DNA from: Thalassospira lucentensis
GTDB lineage: Bacteria > Pseudomonadota > Alphaproteobacteria > Rhodospirillales > Thalassospiraceae
Assembly: GCF_032921865.1 (NCBI RefSeq)
Contig: NZ_CP136684.1
Location: 974,501 to 1,038,500 of the forward strand
DNA length: 64,000 nucleotides
Direction of reading: 5' to 3'
The notes beneath the pieces were generated by a model, which saw only the letters and a list, made by a program, of their open reading frames with translations, was not told where the DNA came from and searched no databases. The first letter of the stretch is position 1. The number at the start of each line of letters is the position of its first letter. Below, in pieces: positions 3 to 13,032 of this stretch. The position numbers were made by a program, and so were the translations under genes.

Positions 3-1475
3 GCGTTAAAGCAGATGAAGGCATGGGCGGATCGGCTTACGACACAGGGAAAGTTCGGAACGCTTGAACAATTGATCCTTCAGGCGGCGTTTGGCGAATA
101 TCTGGCACAGATTCAGGGCGGCATTGCGATGTCGCAGGGCGAGTTCATCCGTCTTTCAACCCTTGGCGTCCCGGGCGATGTGATTGCTGCCCTTGGCGAT
201 AGCCGCGCGGTTGCGACCCTGACCGGCATGGGCAACAGCGACGCCACCCGACGCGCCATTGCCGATCAGATCAAGGACAGCCTTGATACCGGCCGCTTTG
301 GCGAAACCGGGCTTGAAGACGAAACCCTTGATATGGTCCGGGACCAGTTCCGGCGCTTTGTCGATGAAAAGGTCAGCCCGCATGCCCATGGCTGGCACGA
401 ACGCGATGAACTGATCCCGATTGAAATTATCAACGAAATGTCCGAACTGGGCGTTTTCGGCCTGACCATCCCCGAAGAATTCGGCGGGCTTGGCATGGGC
501 AAAACCGCGATGTGCGTCGTGACAGAAGAACTCTCGCGCGGCTATATCGGGATCGGCTCGCTTGGCACACGGTCGGAAATTGCCGCCGAACTGATCCGCC
601 TTGGCGGGACGGATGCGCAAAAGGAACATTACCTGCCGAAACTGGCATCGGGTGAAATCCTGCCAACCGCGGTCTTTACCGAACCCAATAACGGATCGGA
701 TCTGGCGCGCCTGCGCACGCGTGCGATCAAGGATGGCGATACCTATAAGGTCACCGGCAACAAGACATGGATCACCCATGCCGCCCGATCCGACCTGATG
801 ACGCTTCTGGCGCGCACCAACCCCGATGAAACCGGGTATCGCGGGCTTTCCATGCTGCTGGCCGAAAAGCCGCGCGGCACGGAAACTGATCCGTTCCCGG
901 CCAAGGGCATGAGCGGCGGCGAGATCGAGGTGCTTGGCTATCGCGGCATGAAGGAATACGAACTGTCGTTTGACGGGTTCGAGGTTCCCGCCGAAAACCT
1001 TCTGGGCGGCGATGAAGGTCAGGGCTTCAAGCAACTGATGGCGACCTTTGAATCTGCCCGCATCCAGACCGCTGCCCGTGCGGTGGGTGTCGCCCAGAAC
1101 GCGCTTGAAATCGGCATGCGCTATGCGCAGGACCGCATCCAGTTTTCCAATCCGCTTTACAGCTTCCCGCGGGTTTACGGCAAAATCGCCTGGATGGTGG
1201 TTGAAACCATGATCGCCCGTCAGTTGACCTATTTTTCCGCCATCGAAAAAGATCAGGATATCCGCTGCGATATCGAGGCCGGCATGGCAAAGCTTCTGGG
1301 CGCACGCGTCGCATGGTCCAACGCCGATAATGCGCTGCAAATCCACGGTGGCAATGGCTACGCGCTTGAATACCAGATCAGCCGCGTCCTGTGCGATGCC
1401 CGCATCCTGAACATTTTCGAAGGGGCGGCCGAAATTCAGGCGCAGGTCGTGACCCGCGGCCTTCTGGGCCGATAG
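3..1475 (+). CDS. mcd: Acyl-CoA dehydrogenase, probably (2S)-methylsuccinyl-CoA dehydrogenase; 5' end outside window
   Basis: The frame is open to the left edge, so the start is missing; the first ATG inside the window (15) need not be the real one. The visible protein has about 100 residues before a standard acyl-CoA dehydrogenase fold. Family signs are the FTEPNNGSD substrate/FAD-loop motif, IQFSNPLYSFPRV, and the C-terminal ILNIFEGAAEIQ, whose Glu is in the usual catalytic-base position. The N-terminal extension and the GMSGGEIEVLGYRGMKEYE stretch match my memory of methylsuccinyl-CoA dehydrogenase of the ethylmalonyl-CoA pathway (methylsuccinyl-CoA to mesaconyl-CoA, electrons to ETF). The etfBA genes and a B12 adenosyltransferase at 12.4-15 kb are compatible. 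The general family is certain; the exact substrate is inferred. Confidence 0.75.
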   Translation, partial: ALKQMKAWADRLTTQGKFGTLEQLILQAAFGEYLAQIQGGIAMSQGEFIRLSTLGVPGDVIAALGDSRAVATLTGMGNSDATRRAIADQIKDSLDTGRFGETGLEDETLDMVRDQFRRFVDEKVSPHAHGWHERDELIPIEIINEMSELGVFGLTIPEEFGGLGMGKTAMCVVTEELSRGYIGIGSLGTRSEIAAELIRLGGTDAQKEHYLPKLASGEILPTAVFTEPNNGSDLARLRTRAIKDGDTYKVTGNKTWITHAARSDLMTLLARTNPDETGYRGLSMLLAEKPRGTETDPFPAKGMSGGEIEVLGYRGMKEYELSFDGFEVPAENLLGGDEGQGFKQLMATFESARIQTAARAVGVAQNALEIGMRYAQDRIQFSNPLYSFPRVYGKIAWMVVETMIARQLTYFSAIEKDQDIRCDIEAGMAKLLGARVAWSNADNALQIHGGNGYALEYQISRVLCDARILNIFEGAAEIQAQVVTRGLLGR

Positions 1476-6197: not shown

Positions 6198-6638
6198 TTA
6201 CCAGGCACGATAAGGCAGGAATTTGCCATCAAGGGTCACGACAACGCGGTCGCCCTTCGGATCGGCCTTGCGTTCGATATACATTTCGTAATCAATCGCG
6301 CTCATGATGCCGTCGCCGAACTTCTCATGGATGATTTCTTTGATCGTTTCGCCGTAAACGCCCATGATTTCATAGATACGGTACACGGCTGGATCGGTCG
6401 GCACCGCCTGTTCCCAGATTTTCATCGGGCATTCCTGCAACACGGCGGATGCCTCCGCCGGAAGCTCCAGCAGGGCCACCAGCATATCGGCCTTTTCCTT
6501 GGGCGCGGAATTCATGCCAAGGCAGACCGACGTGGTCCATACCGGGGACATGCCGATCTTGCTGGCGATTTCTTCCCAGCCAAGACCCTTGGCTTTTTTG
6601 GACGTAATGATCAGTTCTTTCACATCTGCTTTTTTCAC
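6198..6638 (-). CDS. cynS: Cyanase (cyanate hydratase)
   Basis: Converts cyanate and bicarbonate to ammonia and CO2 (via carbamate). The 146-residue protein has an N-terminal lambda-repressor-like helical domain and the C-terminal cyanase domain. The catalytic Arg and Glu are in YRIYEIM and the catalytic Ser in IMSAIDYE; VHEKFGDGI of the E. coli enzyme appears as IHEKFGDGI. The GTG at 6638 is chosen because GGAG lies 7 bases upstream; a GTG at 6656 is also in frame but has no good ribosome site. It is the last gene of the cynABD-S operon, 36 bp after the ATPase gene. Confidence 0.95.
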   Translation of the reverse strand: MKKADVKELIITSKKAKGLGWEEIASKIGMSPVWTTSVCLGMNSAPKEKADMLVALLELPAEASAVLQECPMKIWEQAVPTDPAVYRIYEIMGVYGETIKEIIHEKFGDGIMSAIDYEMYIERKADPKGDRVVVTLDGKFLPYRAW

Positions 6639-6674: not shown

Positions 6675-7604
6675 TTAGTCGGCACCATTCACCACCCGCG
6701 CACGCGCAGGTGTTTCCCCGGCACCTTTGTTGGATTTATTGGCAACCGGCCCGTTCAGACCAAAACGGATGACGTTCGGTTCGGAAACGCCATCCTCGTC
6801 GCGCTTCCCGGCCAGTTCGCGGGACCGTTTGGCAAGGAATTCGACCAGATGGTTGCGAATATCGTAATAGTCGGGATGATGGATGATATCGGCCCTGACA
6901 CGCGGACGTTCGATATCGACCTGTACCGATTCCGCAACCCTGGCATAGGGGCCGTTGGTCATCAGAAGGATGCGGTCGGCAAGAAGGATCGCCTCGTCCA
7001 CATCATGGGTGATCATGAAGACAGTCTGATCCGACCCGGCCCAGATACGGATCAATTCATCCTGAATGCTGCCCCGTGTCAGGGCATCAAGTGCCCCAAA
7101 CGGCTCATCCAGCAACAGCAGTTCCGGCTGAATGGCAAAGGCACGCGCAATCGAAACGCGCTGACGCATGCCACCTGATAATTGTGATGGCTTGCGAAGC
7201 TCCGCCCCGCCGGTCAAACCCACCATTTCCAGATATTTGATCGAATGATCATGGACCTGTTTCTTGGTCCAGTTGCGATGACGCGCCTGCACGGCAAAGG
7301 TCACGTTTTTAAGCGCGGATAACCACGGCAACAGGGAATAGTTCTGAAACACGATACCGCGATCAAGGCTCGGCCCCGATACTTCCCTGCCATTCATGAT
7401 CACCGCACCGTCGGTCGGCTCGTCCAGCCCGGCAAGGATATTCAGGATCGTCGATTTGCCGCAGCCCGAATGACCGATGATGCAGACAAATTCGCCCTTT
7501 TCGATGCCAAGATTGACGTTTTCAAACACGGTTAACGGATCAGATCCCTTAGGGCCGGGAAACCGTTTGCTTAGTCCCTGTACGCTCAGGAAGGGTGTTG
7601 GCAT
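6675..7604 (-). CDS. cynD: Cyanate/nitrate-type ABC transporter ATP-binding protein
   Basis: 309-residue ATPase of the NrtD/CmpD/CynD group of taurine/nitrate importers. Walker A GHSGCGKST, signature LSGGMRQR, Walker B LLLLDEP and the switch His in MITHDVDEA are all present. About 45 C-terminal residues past the ABC domain are charged and low in complexity. Start 7604 (MPTPFLS) has AAGGAA just upstream; the frame reaches back to 7646 inside the permease gene. It lies 11 bp after the permease stop and 36 bp before cynS, so cyanate is the probable substrate, although nitrate-type transporters look the same by sequence. Confidence 0.88.
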   Translation of the reverse strand: MPTPFLSVQGLSKRFPGPKGSDPLTVFENVNLGIEKGEFVCIIGHSGCGKSTILNILAGLDEPTDGAVIMNGREVSGPSLDRGIVFQNYSLLPWLSALKNVTFAVQARHRNWTKKQVHDHSIKYLEMVGLTGGAELRKPSQLSGGMRQRVSIARAFAIQPELLLLDEPFGALDALTRGSIQDELIRIWAGSDQTVFMITHDVDEAILLADRILLMTNGPYARVAESVQVDIERPRVRADIIHHPDYYDIRNHLVEFLAKRSRELAGKRDEDGVSEPNVIRFGLNGPVANKSNKGAGETPARARVVNGAD

Positions 7605-7615
7605 GGTGCTTTTCC

Positions 7616-8446
7616 TTATTCCTGGTACTGCACAAGGCGGGCGCAATAGGCGAACGCCGTATCAAGAAGCATGCCGACAAGGCCGATCATCAGGATCGAA
7701 AAGATCACACTGGTCAGATCCAGATTGTTCCATTCGTTCCAGACGTAATAGCCAATGCCGGTACCGCCCACGAGCATCTCGGCGGCCACAATCACCAGCC
7801 ACGCAATCCCGATGGAAATCCGCATCCCCGTCAGGATCGTCGGCGCCGCCGCCGGAAGAATGACGATCCATGCGGTTTTAAGCGTGCCCAGTTCATGGGT
7901 GCGCGCGACATTGACCCAGTCCTTGCGTACACCGGCAACGCCAAAGGCCGTATTGATCAGCATCGGCCAGATCGAACAGATAAAGATCACGAAAATCGCC
8001 GATGCCTGACTGTCCTGAATGACAAATAGCGCAAGCGGCATCCACGCCAGCGGCGAAATCGGGCGAAGGATCTGGATGAACGGATCAAGTGCCCGATACA
8101 TCAATGGCGACATGCCAATCAGAAACCCGGCGGGAATGGCAATTGCAGCGGCCAGAAAATAGCCCGACAGCACGCGATAAAGCGAATAGCCGATCTGAAT
8201 GCCAATCCCCTTGTCGTTGGGACCGGCATCATAGAAAGGGTTGGAAAGTTCTTCCCACGCCTTGACAAACACCGCAGATGGCGGCGGCACGGCGGCCTTT
8301 GGCTCTGCCCCGCCCATCAGGATTTCATATTCTGTCAGTTCACTGCCCAGTTTCTGCTGGGGGCTGGCGGCCTCCCATATTCCAAGAAGAACCGCCAGCA
8401 AAACAGCAGACAACAGCAGCGCCCTGGCATTCAGGGATGCGATCAT
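7616..8446 (-). CDS. cynB: Cyanate/nitrate-type ABC transporter permease
   Basis: 276-residue inner-membrane permease of the BPD_transp_1 family. It has an N-terminal membrane segment (LLLSAVLLAVLLGIWEAA), about five further segments, and the EAA-type cytoplasmic loop ELGTLKTAWIVILPAAAPTI that contacts the ATPase. It begins one base after the stop of the binding-protein gene (TGA-T-ATG), which implies translational coupling. It works with the adjacent binding protein and ATPase. Confidence 0.88.
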   Translation of the reverse strand: MIASLNARALLLSAVLLAVLLGIWEAASPQQKLGSELTEYEILMGGAEPKAAVPPPSAVFVKAWEELSNPFYDAGPNDKGIGIQIGYSLYRVLSGYFLAAAIAIPAGFLIGMSPLMYRALDPFIQILRPISPLAWMPLALFVIQDSQASAIFVIFICSIWPMLINTAFGVAGVRKDWVNVARTHELGTLKTAWIVILPAAAPTILTGMRISIGIAWLVIVAAEMLVGGTGIGYYVWNEWNNLDLTSVIFSILMIGLVGMLLDTAFAYCARLVQYQE

Positions 8447-8447
8447 A

Positions 8448-9917
8448 TCAGCTTACCCCTTTGCCAATCGGGAAGCTGTTGACATAGGCCTCGGGCTGAT
8501 CGGGGTCGAACTCTTTGCCCATGATCGTGTATTTCTGATAGGTGCTGTCTGGTGCTTCGTAGCCAAGGTCCTTCATGATCTTGGCGCAATCGCTCGCGAC
8601 ATAGACTTCTTCGGCGATTTTCTTGTAATCGACATCGCCGTCGATATAGCCCCAGCGCTTCATCTGCGTCAGAATCCACACACCCATCGAATGCCACGGG
8701 AACGGATCGAAATCGATGCGATCCGGCACATTCTTGACCTCGCCCAGACCATCGGCATACCGCCCGGTCAGGACCTGCTCGATGACCGGCACCGGCTGGT
8801 TCAGATAGTTGGTCGGCGCGATTGCTGCCGAAATTTCCTTGCGGTTTTCCGGCTTCGATGCGTATTGCGTCGCATCGACAATCGATTTCAGAAGCGCGCC
8901 ATAGGTATTGGGCATTTCATCGGCAAATGCCTTGGAACAGGCAAATGCGCAGCACGGATGACCTTCCCAGATATCCTTGGTCAGGGTGTGGATGAAGCCG
9001 ATTTTCTCCCAGACGGCACGCTGGTTGAACGGATCAGGCGACAGATAGCCATCAAGGTTACCCGCACGCAGGTTGGCGACCATTTCGGGCGGCGGAACGA
9101 CACGGATCTGGATGTCTTTATCCGGGTCAAGGCCATGTTCGGCGACGTAATAACGCAGCAGGAAGTTGTGCATCGAATATTCGAACGGCACACCGAACTT
9201 GAAGCCCTTCCACTGTTTGGGATCGCGTTTATCAAGATGGTCGTTATGCAGGACAATCGCCTGCCCGTTGATGTTTTCAACTGCCGGCATCAGGAACGGG
9301 GTTGCGGTCGAACCCGCCCCCATGGTGATGGCAAGCGGCATCGGGGTGAGCATATGCGACGCGTCATATTCATTGTTCAATGACTTGTCACGTGCGACCG
9401 CCCAGCCCGCAGTTTTGATCACATCGACATCAAGGCCGTATTTCTCATAAAAGCCCATCGGCTGGGCCATAATGATCGGTGTGGCGCAGGTGATCGGAAC
9501 AAAACCGATATTAAGCTTGGTCTTTTCCGGCGTGCCCAGATCATCAAGGATCGCCGCCTTGACCTTATCCAGCGGCAGGACCGACGCCAGTGCCGCCATC
9601 ATCGTGCCGCTGCCAACCATTTTGGCAAAGGAACGACGCGAAATCTCGTTATGCCCGAAGACAGAGCGGACCACCGCACTTTCAATCGCGCGATCCAGCA
9701 TTTCCTCGCTGCTGGCAAGTTTGCCAGACGATGACGCCGCGCCATCCACAGCCATATCGCTATGGGCGGGCATCGATGCCAGATCGTATGTGTCTTCGTG
9801 ATGGTCATGACCGGCATGGTGATGTTTGCCGGTTGCGCAAGCCTCGCAGCCGCACGATTTGCTATGCCGCAGATCGCTTTCGCCACTGAATGGATCGCCC
9901 AGACTTTTGATAGACAT
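8448..9917 (-). CDS. cynA: Cyanate/nitrate ABC transporter substrate-binding protein with Cys/His-rich leader and internal Tat motif
   Basis: About 489 residues, NrtA/CmpA/CynA family: periplasmic solute-binding domain from about residue 130 (IGFVPITCATPIIMAQ). Residues 94-95 are the twin arginine of SRRSFAKM followed by a hydrophobic stretch (VGSGTMMAALASVLPL), a Tat signal as in NrtA. Before it lies an unusual leader with Cys 22, 24 and 27 (CGCEAC) and a His cluster (HHHAGHDHH, 32-40), which looks able to bind metal. Start 9917 has an AGGGGG ribosome site; the upstream frame to 10055 lacks family likeness. First gene of the operon, downstream of a consensus sigma-54 promoter. Confidence 0.88.
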   Translation of the reverse strand: MSIKSLGDPFSGESDLRHSKSCGCEACATGKHHHAGHDHHEDTYDLASMPAHSDMAVDGAASSSGKLASSEEMLDRAIESAVVRSVFGHNEISRRSFAKMVGSGTMMAALASVLPLDKVKAAILDDLGTPEKTKLNIGFVPITCATPIIMAQPMGFYEKYGLDVDVIKTAGWAVARDKSLNNEYDASHMLTPMPLAITMGAGSTATPFLMPAVENINGQAIVLHNDHLDKRDPKQWKGFKFGVPFEYSMHNFLLRYYVAEHGLDPDKDIQIRVVPPPEMVANLRAGNLDGYLSPDPFNQRAVWEKIGFIHTLTKDIWEGHPCCAFACSKAFADEMPNTYGALLKSIVDATQYASKPENRKEISAAIAPTNYLNQPVPVIEQVLTGRYADGLGEVKNVPDRIDFDPFPWHSMGVWILTQMKRWGYIDGDVDYKKIAEEVYVASDCAKIMKDLGYEAPDSTYQKYTIMGKEFDPDQPEAYVNSFPIGKGVS

Positions 9918-9979
9918 GTGGTCACCCCCTGTTTTGTTTACGCCGCCCGTCAGGCGACACCGATATTCGGGGTGATAAC

Positions 9980-9995
9980 AGCAACCGGCGTGCCA
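9980..9995 (-). promoter_or_regulatory. Sigma-54 (-24/-12) promoter of the cyn operon
   Basis: On the minus strand TGGCAC-GCCGG-TTGCT matches the RpoN consensus TGGCAC-N5-TTGC(A/T) at every fixed base. The expected transcription start is near 9969, about 50 bases before the cynA ATG. A sigma-54 activator gene is transcribed divergently from the same gap. Confidence 0.88.
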
Positions 9996-10065
9996 GATTT
10001 GTGCAGCGCGAAAAACTCTAGGGAAAGACTGGACTTTGGCCCGAAACAGGCGCAATCTCGGGCTA

Positions 10066-10118
10066 TACGAAATTTCGTAATTTACGATATTTCGTAACCA
10101 TATTTACGAAATATCGTA
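10066..10118. promoter_or_regulatory. Three palindromic upstream activator sites (TTACGAWATWTCGTAA)
   Basis: Site 1 (10066-10079) is TACGAAATTTCGTA, a perfect palindrome. Site 2 (10082-10097) is TTACGATATTTCGTAA and site 3 (10104-10118) is TTACGAAATATCGTA, each with one mismatch. They lie about 100-145 bp upstream of the predicted cyn transcription start, the usual place for enhancer sites of sigma-54 activators. Site 3 is 11 bp before the regulator's own ATG, which suggests autoregulation. Confidence 0.8.
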
Positions 10119-10129
10119 GGCCAATCACG

Positions 10130-12073
10130 ATGGATCAGATTGCAAACCCGCCACCCCCAACGGTTTCGGATGCCCTGTATCAACAGGCCCTTGCATCGCA
10201 TATTCATCCGACTTTGCTGGTGCATCCGCAAAGTGATCGCATCATGTTTGCCAATCAGGCGGCGGCGCATTTGCTGGGCCGCAGCATTGCGGACCTTAAA
10301 TCTACCGCCATGAGCAGCCTGCACAAGGGGCAGGTGCCAAGCCTTGTGGTGTTCAGTCAGGCCGCCCTTTATCACGGCTTCGCCTGGACGCGGGGCCTTA
10401 ACCTGATGCATGCGGATGGCACCGAAATCCAGCTTGAACACGAAGCCCGCGCCCTGCACTGGGAGGGCGAGGATTACCTGATCATCATCCTGTGTGACCT
10501 TGATGCCCGCCACCGCCGCGACGTCGATGCCGAGGCCGATAATTACCTGCGCGAAGGCATTGCCGAATGGCGGCGTGCCGAACGGTTTTTCCGCGAAATC
10601 GAACGCGAAAACCAGTTGATCCTGGGGGCAGCGGGCGAAGGCATTTACGGGGTCAACAGCGACGGCATCACCACCTTCGTCAATCCGGCTGCCGAACGGA
10701 TGCTGGGCTGGACGGCCGAGGAACTGGTGGGCAAGGAAATCCATTCGATCATCCACCATTCGCATATCAATGGCGATCCCTACCACGCCGAACATTGCCC
10801 GATTTACAATGCGTTCCGCGAAGGCATCGTTCGGCGGGTTGATGACGAGGTTTTCTGGCGCAGCGACGGCAAACCGATCCGGGTTGAATATACCTCCACC
10901 CCGATCCGCGATCATGGGCTGGTGATTGGCGCGGTGATCGTGTTTCGCGATATCACCGAACGCAAGATTGCCGAGGAAAAGCTGCATGCGGCGCTTGCCG
11001 AAGTCGACCGCCTGCGCGAAAGGCTCGAACTTGAAAACGCCTATCTGCAGGAAGAAATCCTGTCGACCAACAACCACCATGAAATCATCGGCCAGTCCGA
11101 GGCGATCAATAGTGCGCTTAAACAGATCGATCTGGTCGCCCCGACCGATGCCAACGTCCTGATCACCGGGGAATCGGGGACCGGCAAGGAACTGATCGCG
11201 CGCGCCATCCATCAGGCAAGCCACCGGCGCGACCGTGTTCTGGTGCGCGTGAACTGTGCCGCCATCCCCCATGAACTGTTCGAAAGCGAGTTTTTCGGCC
11301 ATGTCCGCGGTGCCTTTACCGGGGCCGTGCGCGATCGCGTCGGGCGGTTCGAACTGGCCGATGGCGGAACGCTATTTCTGGACGAGGTCGGTGAAATCCC
11401 GCTGGAACTACAGGGCAAGCTTTTGCGCGTTCTGCAGGATCAGAAGTTCGAACGCATCGGCGAGGAACGCACGCGAGAGGTCAATGTAAGGCTATTGGCC
11501 GCAACCAACCGCGATCTCAAGGAAGAAGTCCGGCTCGGCCGCTTCCGCGAAGATCTGTATTTCCGCCTGAATGTGTTTCCCATCGAATGCCGGCCGCTGC
11601 GCGAACGGCCCGACGATATCCCGCCCCTGGCGACACATTTCCTGCGCAATATCTGCCAGCGGCTGAACATTCCGCAACTGACGCTCACCAACGGGCAGGT
11701 CCGAAGCCTGATGAAATATGACTGGCCGGGCAATGCGCGCGAACTTGAAAACATCATCGAACGCGCCGCCATTCTGGCGCGCGACGGTAAACTGAATTTT
11801 GACCTGCCCGAACCCAACCGCCGCGAAACAGATCATGGCAATGCCAACCCCGCACGTGATCAGGCCAGCCCCCAATCGGCAATCCTGACCGAAGATGACC
11901 GGCGCAAACGCGAATATGACAATATCATCCGCGCCCTTGAAACCACACGCGGCCGGATTTTTGGCCCCGATGGCGCGGCAGCCCTTTTGAATGTAAAGCC
12001 GACAACACTGGCATCGCGGATCAAAAAGCTTCGGATTGACCGGCGCGATTTCACGCCATCGGGCCAACCCTAG
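10130..12073 (+). CDS. Sigma-54-dependent transcriptional activator with PAS sensing, divergent from cyn operon
   Basis: 647 residues. Residues 1-140 resemble a degenerate PAS; 160-285 are a clear PAS domain (AAGEGIYGVNSDGITTFVNP) ending in the FRDITERK exit motif, with an unusual His/Cys-rich loop HHSHINGDPYHAEHCPIY. Residues about 317-555 are the AAA+ domain: Walker A GESGTGKE, sigma-54 contact loop GAFTGA, Walker B GGTLFLDEVGE. The C-terminal FhlA-like Fis-type helix-turn-helix is GPDGAAALLNVKPTTLASRI. There is no receiver domain, so it should sense its signal directly. The divergent position and the palindromes make it the probable activator of cynABDS. The start has only a weak ribosome site, overlapped by palindrome 3. 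Confidence 0.9.
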   Translation: MDQIANPPPPTVSDALYQQALASHIHPTLLVHPQSDRIMFANQAAAHLLGRSIADLKSTAMSSLHKGQVPSLVVFSQAALYHGFAWTRGLNLMHADGTEIQLEHEARALHWEGEDYLIIILCDLDARHRRDVDAEADNYLREGIAEWRRAERFFREIERENQLILGAAGEGIYGVNSDGITTFVNPAAERMLGWTAEELVGKEIHSIIHHSHINGDPYHAEHCPIYNAFREGIVRRVDDEVFWRSDGKPIRVEYTSTPIRDHGLVIGAVIVFRDITERKIAEEKLHAALAEVDRLRERLELENAYLQEEILSTNNHHEIIGQSEAINSALKQIDLVAPTDANVLITGESGTGKELIARAIHQASHRRDRVLVRVNCAAIPHELFESEFFGHVRGAFTGAVRDRVGRFELADGGTLFLDEVGEIPLELQGKLLRVLQDQKFERIGEERTREVNVRLLAATNRDLKEEVRLGRFREDLYFRLNVFPIECRPLRERPDDIPPLATHFLRNICQRLNIPQLTLTNGQVRSLMKYDWPGNARELENIIERAAILARDGKLNFDLPEPNRRETDHGNANPARDQASPQSAILTEDDRRKREYDNIIRALETTRGRIFGPDGAAALLNVKPTTLASRIKKLRIDRRDFTPSGQP

Positions 12074-12459: not shown

Positions 12460-13032
12460 ATGGTTCAACTGACCCGCATCTACACCAAATCCGGCGACAA
12501 GGGCAAAACCGCCCTTGGCAATGGCACCCGCGTTGCCAAAAACGATATTCGCGTTGCGGCCTATGGCACGGTGGACGAAACCAATGCGGTGATTGGGGTT
12601 GCCCGCCTGCATGCGACTGGTGATGTCGATGCCATGCTCGCCCGCATCCAGAACGACCTTTTTGATCTTGGGGCCGATCTGTGCACGCCCGGTGATGGCA
12701 GCGACGATAACCCGGAACGCCCGGCCCTTCGCATCACGAGCAAGCAGACCGAGCGGCTGGAAAGCGAAATCGATGCGATCAATGCCGGTCTTGATCCGCT
12801 GACATCCTTTGTCCTGCCCGGTGGCAGCGCCCTTTCGGCCCAGCTTCATGTCGCGCGCACCGTATCGCGCCGCGCCGAACGGCTGATTGTGGAGCTCTCG
12901 GGAATCGAGGCGATCAACCCCGAAGCGGTCCGTTACATCAACCGCCTGTCGGACCATATGTTCGTTCTGGCCCGCCATGCCAATAATGGTGGCAAGGACG
13001 ATATCCTGTGGCAACCCGGCCTGACCCGCTAG
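12460..13032 (+). CDS. Cob(I)alamin adenosyltransferase, PduO/MMAB type
   Basis: 190 residues. Adenosylates cob(I)alamin with ATP to give coenzyme B12. The ATP-binding N-terminus is RIYTKSGDKGKTALGNGTRVAKND; the helical core has AYGTVDETNAVIG and the C-terminal RTVSRRAERLIV and YINRLSDHMFVLAR motifs of PduO-type enzymes. The ATG at 12460 starts the family sequence; the frame reaches back to 12358 inside the previous gene. Likely co-transcribed with the twin-TM gene. Its product would serve B12-dependent mutases such as those of the ethylmalonyl-CoA pathway. Confidence 0.92.
   Translation: MVQLTRIYTKSGDKGKTALGNGTRVAKNDIRVAAYGTVDETNAVIGVARLHATGDVDAMLARIQNDLFDLGADLCTPGDGSDDNPERPALRITSKQTERLESEIDAINAGLDPLTSFVLPGGSALSAQLHVARTVSRRAERLIVELSGIEAINPEAVRYINRLSDHMFVLARHANNGGKDDILWQPGLTR

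Follow-up and report, generated by a model that had tools for sequence, protein, structure and literature searches.

A candidate three-palindrome operator of the sigma54 activator CynF at the cyanate locus of Thalassospira lucentensis

Introduction

How are the cyanate genes of Thalassospira lucentensis switched on, and what is the role of three palindromes that lie between cynABDS and a divergent activator gene? In E. coli, the local control of cyanase is exerted by CynR, a LysR protein that acts without sigma54 and belongs to a different protein family from the activator CynF discussed here. The DNA analyzed, hereafter the window, is a stretch of 64,000 nt from the forward strand of contig NZ_CP136684.1 (positions 974,501–1,038,500; assembly GCF_032921865.1).

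CynF has been described in P. pseudoalcaligenes (oleovorans) CECT5344, where its gene and cynA are divergent and 268 bp apart, with an RpoN box (PMC6627978). It is essential for cynABDS, and cyanase activity was undetected in a cynF mutant; the system is induced by cyanate and repressed by ammonium (section 2.2), and a sigma70 promoter was predicted for cynF (PMC6627978). The first-pass annotation of the window had regarded a sigma54 activator of cyanase as undescribed, which is contradicted by this published system. The genetics of cyanate control by CynF are thus in print, and no operator was given in the papers found: "palindrom," "UAS," "enhancer," and "operator" are absent from the main text of PMC6627978, no CynF operator was found in the open-access literature, and the operator letters gave one literature match, on type VI secretion. 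The new part of this work is the candidate CynF operator; sigma54 control of cyanase by CynF was already known.

The cyn Genes and Their Promoter

The coordinates of the locus are listed in Table 1.

Table 1. Features of the cyanate locus, with positions counted from the first base of the window.
Feature	Position	Strand	Basis
cynS, cyanase	6198..6638	-	Cyanate_lyase; TIGR00673 170 bits, cut-off 113.3
cynD, ABC ATPase	6675..7604	-	ABC_tran; ntrCD model above cut-off
cynB, ABC permease	7616..8446	-	BPD_transp_1; ntrB model above cut-off
cynA, periplasmic binding protein, 489 aa from ATG at 9917	8448..9917	-	NMT1_2
sigma54 -24/-12 box TGGCACGCCGGTTGC of cynABDS	9981..9995	-	exact motif match
possible cynF promoter TGGACT-17-CAATCT, immediately before site 1	10030..10058	+	weak sigma70 match, putative
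operator site 1 (candidate), ATACGAAATTTCGTAA, center 10072.5	10065..10080	.	1 mismatch to TTACGAWATWTCGTAA
operator site 2 (candidate), TTACGATATTTCGTAA, center 10089.5	10082..10097	.	exact match to TTACGAWATWTCGTAA
operator site 3 (candidate), TTACGAAATATCGTAG, center 10111.5	10104..10119	.	1 mismatch to TTACGAWATWTCGTAA
cynF, divergent activator gene	10130..12073	+	PAS, Sigma54_activat, AAA-lid matches
CynF domains: PAS1 ~28–123, coiled helix, PAS2 ~171–274, AAA+ 319–560 (GAFTGA loop), HTH 588–633			

The full-consensus -24/-12 box reported in front of cynABDS was perfect. The exact pattern TGGCAC-N5-TTGC occurred twice in the window, the other copy (12522–12536) lying within an ORF. With one mismatch allowed there were 12 occurrences vs. 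7.46 expected, and 5 of 100 shuffles reached 12; the box by itself is therefore insignificant, and its position and conservation are what count. It was perfect in 17 of the 18 Thalassospira loci, and L024 matched at 9 of 10 positions. Judged from the -12 position, cynABDS transcription would start near 9969, and rpoN was found in the same genome. Control by a LysR protein similar to CynR was rejected, as there were no LysR genes among the scanned neighbors and ORFs.

The N-terminus of CynA (9590–9917, minus strand) consists of a long extension with a CGCxxC motif and a His-rich stretch, followed by a twin-arginine-like signal. This extension is possibly metal-binding.

CynF and Related Activators

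The divergent gene is a CynF orthologue. It is transcribed away from cynABDS, a sigma54 box precedes cynA, and its product showed full-length homology to the Pseudomonas mendocina group (55% identity to locus L142, residues 3–643). As in CECT5344, the activator is a divergent sigma54 protein of the Fis family, an RpoN box stands before cynA and the gene order is identical. The L142 locus, from a relative of CECT5344, also carried the triple palindrome. Its cynF–cynA interval (268 bp, counted by hand) equaled the length published for CECT5344, and its sigma54 box TGGTACAGCTCCTGC lay 77.5 bp from site 1, compared with 91.5 bp in the window.

The protein had been annotated as a receiver-less PAS/AAA+/Fis activator. 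The PAS and AAA+ domains held (Sigma54_activat E 2.1e-72, with Walker A GESGTGKE and GAFTGA present), and a Pfam scan of CynF found no receiver domain. The Fis-type helix-turn-helix had no Pfam match in the window CynF, and its assignment came from the alignment and a structure model. The AlphaFold model (33 sequences; mean pLDDT 72.9, pTM 0.31) contained two PAS-like folds, long connecting helices, and a C-terminal helix-turn-helix, with the AAA+ part at low confidence. The 50 matches listed in a PDB search with this model were AAA+ activators.

Assignments to other known regulators were rejected. CynF scored 390.6 bits for FhlA, 377.4 for NorR and 365.8 for NifA, against NCBIfam cut-offs of 830, 476, and 528.85, respectively. 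A regulator of the NitA/Nit1C type was also rejected, as the neighbor of cynF is cynABDS and not a Nit1C cluster.

FhlA gave the top NCBIfam score and has a similar recognition helix. Its consensus CATTTCGTACGAAATG shares the words TTTCGT and ACGAAA with the CynF sites, but in opposite order. The sensor of FhlA is a GAF domain. In the E. coli hyc-fhlA stretch examined, ACGA-N4-TCGT was absent and the FhlA consensus was unfound at 3 mismatches, so the likeness remains a lead.

The Three Palindromes and Their Conservation

The candidate sites share the core ACGA-N4-TCGT, and their centers are spaced by 17 and then 22 bp. Four matches to TTACGAWATWTCGTAA with at most 3 mismatches were present in the window; shuffles averaged 0.28, and none of 100 reached four. 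Measured from the final base of the -12 element, the centers lie at 91.5, 108.5, and 130.5 bp, in agreement with the ~100–145 bp upstream given in the first-pass annotation if this is counted from the start site. The coordinates and letters given there were right, and the stated range 9980–10118 missed the last base of the 16-mer site 3. The gap between site 3 and the start codon of cynF is ten bases. With 2 mismatches allowed, the palindrome was found at six places in the genome (both strands read each) vs. four for the reversed control; given these counts and the single triple, no further targets are claimed in this genome.

Orthologues of CynF (at least 79% identity) were found in 18 of 28 Thalassospira genomes (100 genomes examined, own included). 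Outside the genus, loci were drawn from 289 genomes of the class (15 matches, E 1e-110 or better), 398 genomes of the phylum (25 matches; own included in these sets), and 21 plasmid records, 8 of which were taken. Loci were divided by whether the match reached PAS1 (start at or before query residue 31), and the best three-site score near the regulator start was recorded; paralogues L026–L036 were left out of this scoring. PAS1-reaching matches scored 30–34 in the 18 genus loci and 24–32 in 34 outside loci, so that all 52 exceeded the 16–21 obtained from 397 random pieces of the window. Ten loci with matches from residue 116 or later scored 18–22. Besides paralogues, this group included L058, a broken plasmid copy matching from residue 116 that had no operator and whose upstream genes look deleted. 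Conservation of the palindromes beside orthologous regulators had been set beforehand as a test able to refute the proposal, and when the test was run the proposal withstood it.

The G of ACGA was invariant in all three sites of the 32 outside loci counted, a set without L054 and L055. The two spacings in these were 17/22 in 13 loci, 17/21 in 11, 17/23 in 4, and 18/22 in 4. As exceptions, the Rhodobacterales loci L054 and L055 retained sites 1 and 2 only, and L045–L049 had at least one degenerate half-site, with L045 and L046 the worst. The triple was present as a single copy in 19 of 29 Thalassospira genomes, and cynS was present in the identical 19. The reversed triple pattern was absent from the 29 genomes.

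On the plasmid of Loktanella salsilacus (L054), one CynF-type gene stands between cynABDS and a Nit1C cluster. This suggests a single regulator for cyanate and nitrile use.

Gene-Blind Search for the Triple

The strict triple pattern was also scanned in one genome per species across 84,980 species, with no gene named. At least 119 triples were found vs. ~0.01 expected from base composition, and viral contigs contained none. A CynF-like bEBP was detected by tblastn in 111 of the 119 listed loci; in the other eight, the triple was always less than 500 bp from the end of the stretch. cynA or cynS (at least 35% identity, tblastn) was present in 75 listed loci, Nit1C genes in one, and neither class in 43. 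In the six "other" loci whose match to CynF ran full length, the stretch also ended less than 500 bp from the triple. PAS1-reaching matches stood beside cyn or nit genes in 66 of the 72 listed, and the other six were cut near the triple. The polarity was the same in all 69 listed cyn loci in which cynF was seen: cynF ran in the direction from site 1 to site 3 and the cyn genes ran opposite. The recognition helix PTTLxxR occurred in 117 of 133 bEBPs of triple loci vs. 2 of 19 others.

The Nit1C cyanide/nitrile cluster is controlled by NitA, which is also a divergent sigma54 regulator of the Fis family but acts on nitBCDEFGH and not on cynABDS (PMC11049912). At the Acinetobacter plasmid loci L053, L056, and L057, the triple, at 18/22, preceded Nit1C genes, with a CynF-like regulator divergent from them. 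A triple with a CynF-like bEBP was likewise present at the Nit1C genes of L068 and of scan locus L175, and in all five loci the first spacing was 18 instead of 17.

These results bear on the possibility that CynF is a bystander and that a different regulator occupies the sites, such as one acting globally in nitrogen control. The motif ACGA-N4-TCGT differs from the NtrC site. Repression of the CECT5344 system by ammonium agrees with such a regulator (PMC6627978), but every positive genus genome had one triple, always alongside cynS, and the triple tracked CynF-like bEBPs across phyla, also with non-nitrogen targets. We consider this explanation very improbable. In these sequence comparisons the triple behaves as an operator, in agreement with the annotated dedicated activator with an operator of its own. 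The comparisons assign this predicted operator to CynF-type activators, with a nearly fixed spacing, a constant phase to the promoter, and a tendency to travel with cyn genes.

A sigma54-like element, TGGYRN-N4/5-TTR, was observed 3–6 bp past site 3 and facing cynF in 22 of the 119 listed loci, including L086, L089, L097, L129, L142, and L144. It was usually without the GC of the -12 element. Of the 15 titled loci, 14 belonged to Gammaproteobacteria (by genus or title) and one to unspecified Proteobacteria.

Distance and Phase Between Operator and Promoter

A box matching at least 9 of 10 positions and oriented away from site 1, at a distance of 40–130 bp, was found in 87 of 118 listed loci (the 119 minus one with a short flank). 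The same criterion yielded 0.000 boxes per locus in shuffled sequence and a single box on the site-3 side. With a slightly looser score, a sigma54 box was found in 106 of 117 listed loci (two left out for short flanks), and 11 had no convincing box. Between the site 1 center and the end of the -12 element, the distances were 54.5–55.5 bp (n = 2), 66.5–70.5 (n = 10), 76.5–80.5 (n = 42), 86.5–92.5 (n = 43), 94.5 (n = 1), 102.5–103.5 (n = 6), 112.5 (n = 1), and 114.5 (n = 1); the Acinetobacter Nit1C loci had 121.5–122.5 bp.

After removal of similar loci, 65 distances gave a phase R of 0.76 at a best period of 11.7 (10–12 scanned, a range chosen after the distances were seen, though the R test itself was not), and this R was reached by 0 of 20,000 uniform simulations; the phase and association counts contain related sequences, and clustering at 75% AAA+ identity left 5 representatives, too few for use. 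Two of the 65 distances lay in troughs vs. 41% expected, with the troughs drawn after the data were seen. The steps of ~11 bp indicated that the enhancer keeps one helix face.

Here, two explanations were considered for the position of the sites: the first is that CynF would bind all three, loop to the sigma54 polymerase, and drive cynABDS, for which we infer the binding, the inducer, and the dependence on RpoN and to which we give a probability of about 0.86; the other is that the palindromes only repress cynF, while CynF or NtrC drives cynABDS from some other position. The second agrees with the layout of the genus loci, where site 3 directly adjoins the start of cynF and the sites occupy the region in which cynF transcripts are expected to start. 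However, the sites are helically phased to the sigma54 box of cynABDS. In addition, the activator gene was reversed in ten "other" loci, with the triple past its 3′ end in those inspected, and a 9/10 sigma54 box was retained in nine of the ten, at a distance to site 1 of 79.5 or 90.5 bp (L103 had none). These reversed loci indicated an enhancer role independent of autoregulation. In P. mendocina L142, moreover, the cynF start codon is 56 bases beyond site 3. Repression of cynF as the sole function is thus very improbable.

Autoregulation of cynF

An enhancer role driven by CynF may coexist with control of its own gene. In a genus alignment of 12 sequences, read by eye, 11 had the hexamer TGGACT and L023 had TAGACT; the -10-like hexamer was variable, and the length from TGGACT to site 1 was unchanged in 11 of 12. 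The position of TGGACT, immediately before site 1, places the expected start of cynF transcription at or within the sites. In L041, L042, L051, and L053 an ATG overlapped site 3 or followed it directly. With site 3 abutting the cynF start and site 1 at the expected transcription start, bound CynF would limit its own synthesis. CynF probably represses its own gene; the case is weaker for Pseudomonas, given the distant start codon of L142.

Signal Sensing

When 52 relatives were aligned (45 of the 120 listed from 3565 homologues, plus seven plasmid proteins), H205, H209, H210, Y218, and C223 of PAS2 were kept in every row, and PAS1 was more variable. At four cyn loci (L134, L164, L170, and L197), CynF had no PAS1 and began at PAS2. 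If a PAS domain is the sensor, this points to PAS2. As a bolder addition, His205/209/210, Tyr218, and Cys223 might form the signal site, for example if cyanate carbamoylates the cysteine.

Cofactor binding is common among PAS domains. It is a tentative but serious possibility that the PAS module senses the nitrogen or redox state and that cyanate acts indirectly. In CECT5344, nitrogen-starved cells had basal cyanase and cells given ammonium had none, in line with this possibility, but cyanate raised the activity ~15-fold over starvation (PMC6627978, Table 1). The segregation of PAS1-reaching matches with cyn or nit genes (see above) also argues against it.

A Wider Activator Family

Titles were listed for 80 of the 119 scan loci. 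Titled triple loci without cyn genes included records from Planctomycetota, Bacteroidota, Acidobacteria, Verrucomicrobia/Kiritimatiellales, and Gemmatimonadetes, and many were metagenome-assembled. In 35 "other" loci the match to CynF was partial and began at residue 119 or later. Five "other" activators were scanned for domains: L104 and L136 carried GAF, L101 a cNMP-binding domain, and L149 and L154 PAS. Among the neighbors scanned, L104 and L136 had CMD-family genes, L101 had OsmC and pyruvate:ferredoxin oxidoreductase, and the neighbor at L154 matched no family.

In the Bacteroidota loci L101, L120, L150, and L151, the triple lay between the activator stop and apparent osmC and pyruvate:ferredoxin oxidoreductase genes. 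The cNMP domain was found in L101, the sole activator scanned among these four.

We consider it rather probable that the triple (17–18 and 21–23 bp, on one helix face) is a single cis-code of a sigma54 activator clade in at least six phyla, in which sensors and targets were swapped. The DNA-binding end and the operator would then be constant, with PAS-PAS, PAS, GAF, or cNMP-binding sensors. The targets would be cyanate, cyanide/nitrile, OsmC plus pyruvate:ferredoxin oxidoreductase, and carboxymuconolactone-decarboxylase-family genes. The simplest reading is that operator and helix-turn-helix were retained and sensors exchanged.

Regulatory Model and Implications

In the model proposed for T. 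lucentensis, the Fis-type helix-turn-helix of CynF would bind the three ACGA-N4-TCGT sites. Through the PAS module, cyanate and/or nitrogen need would be signaled and lead to a higher-order CynF oligomer. This oligomer may assemble on the three sites as described for NorR of norVW, a ligand-sensing activator with three enhancer sites, all reported to be required (PMC4987338); NorR differs in its GAF sensor and GT-N7-AC site. CynF would then loop the DNA to the sigma54-polymerase waiting at the -24/-12 box, and its ATP hydrolysis, as expected from its family, would open the cynABDS promoter. Bound CynF would probably also limit the expression of cynF.

The natural series of distances (~68, 79, 90, 103, 112, and 122 bp) offers a test bed for the facing of sigma54 enhancers and promoters. 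If the single-code reading is true, the family would be a clean case of one enhancer code outlasting changes of both sensor and target. With a readable operator, the regulons of CynF and NitA become callable from sequence, and the operator marks users of cyanate and cyanide in genomes.
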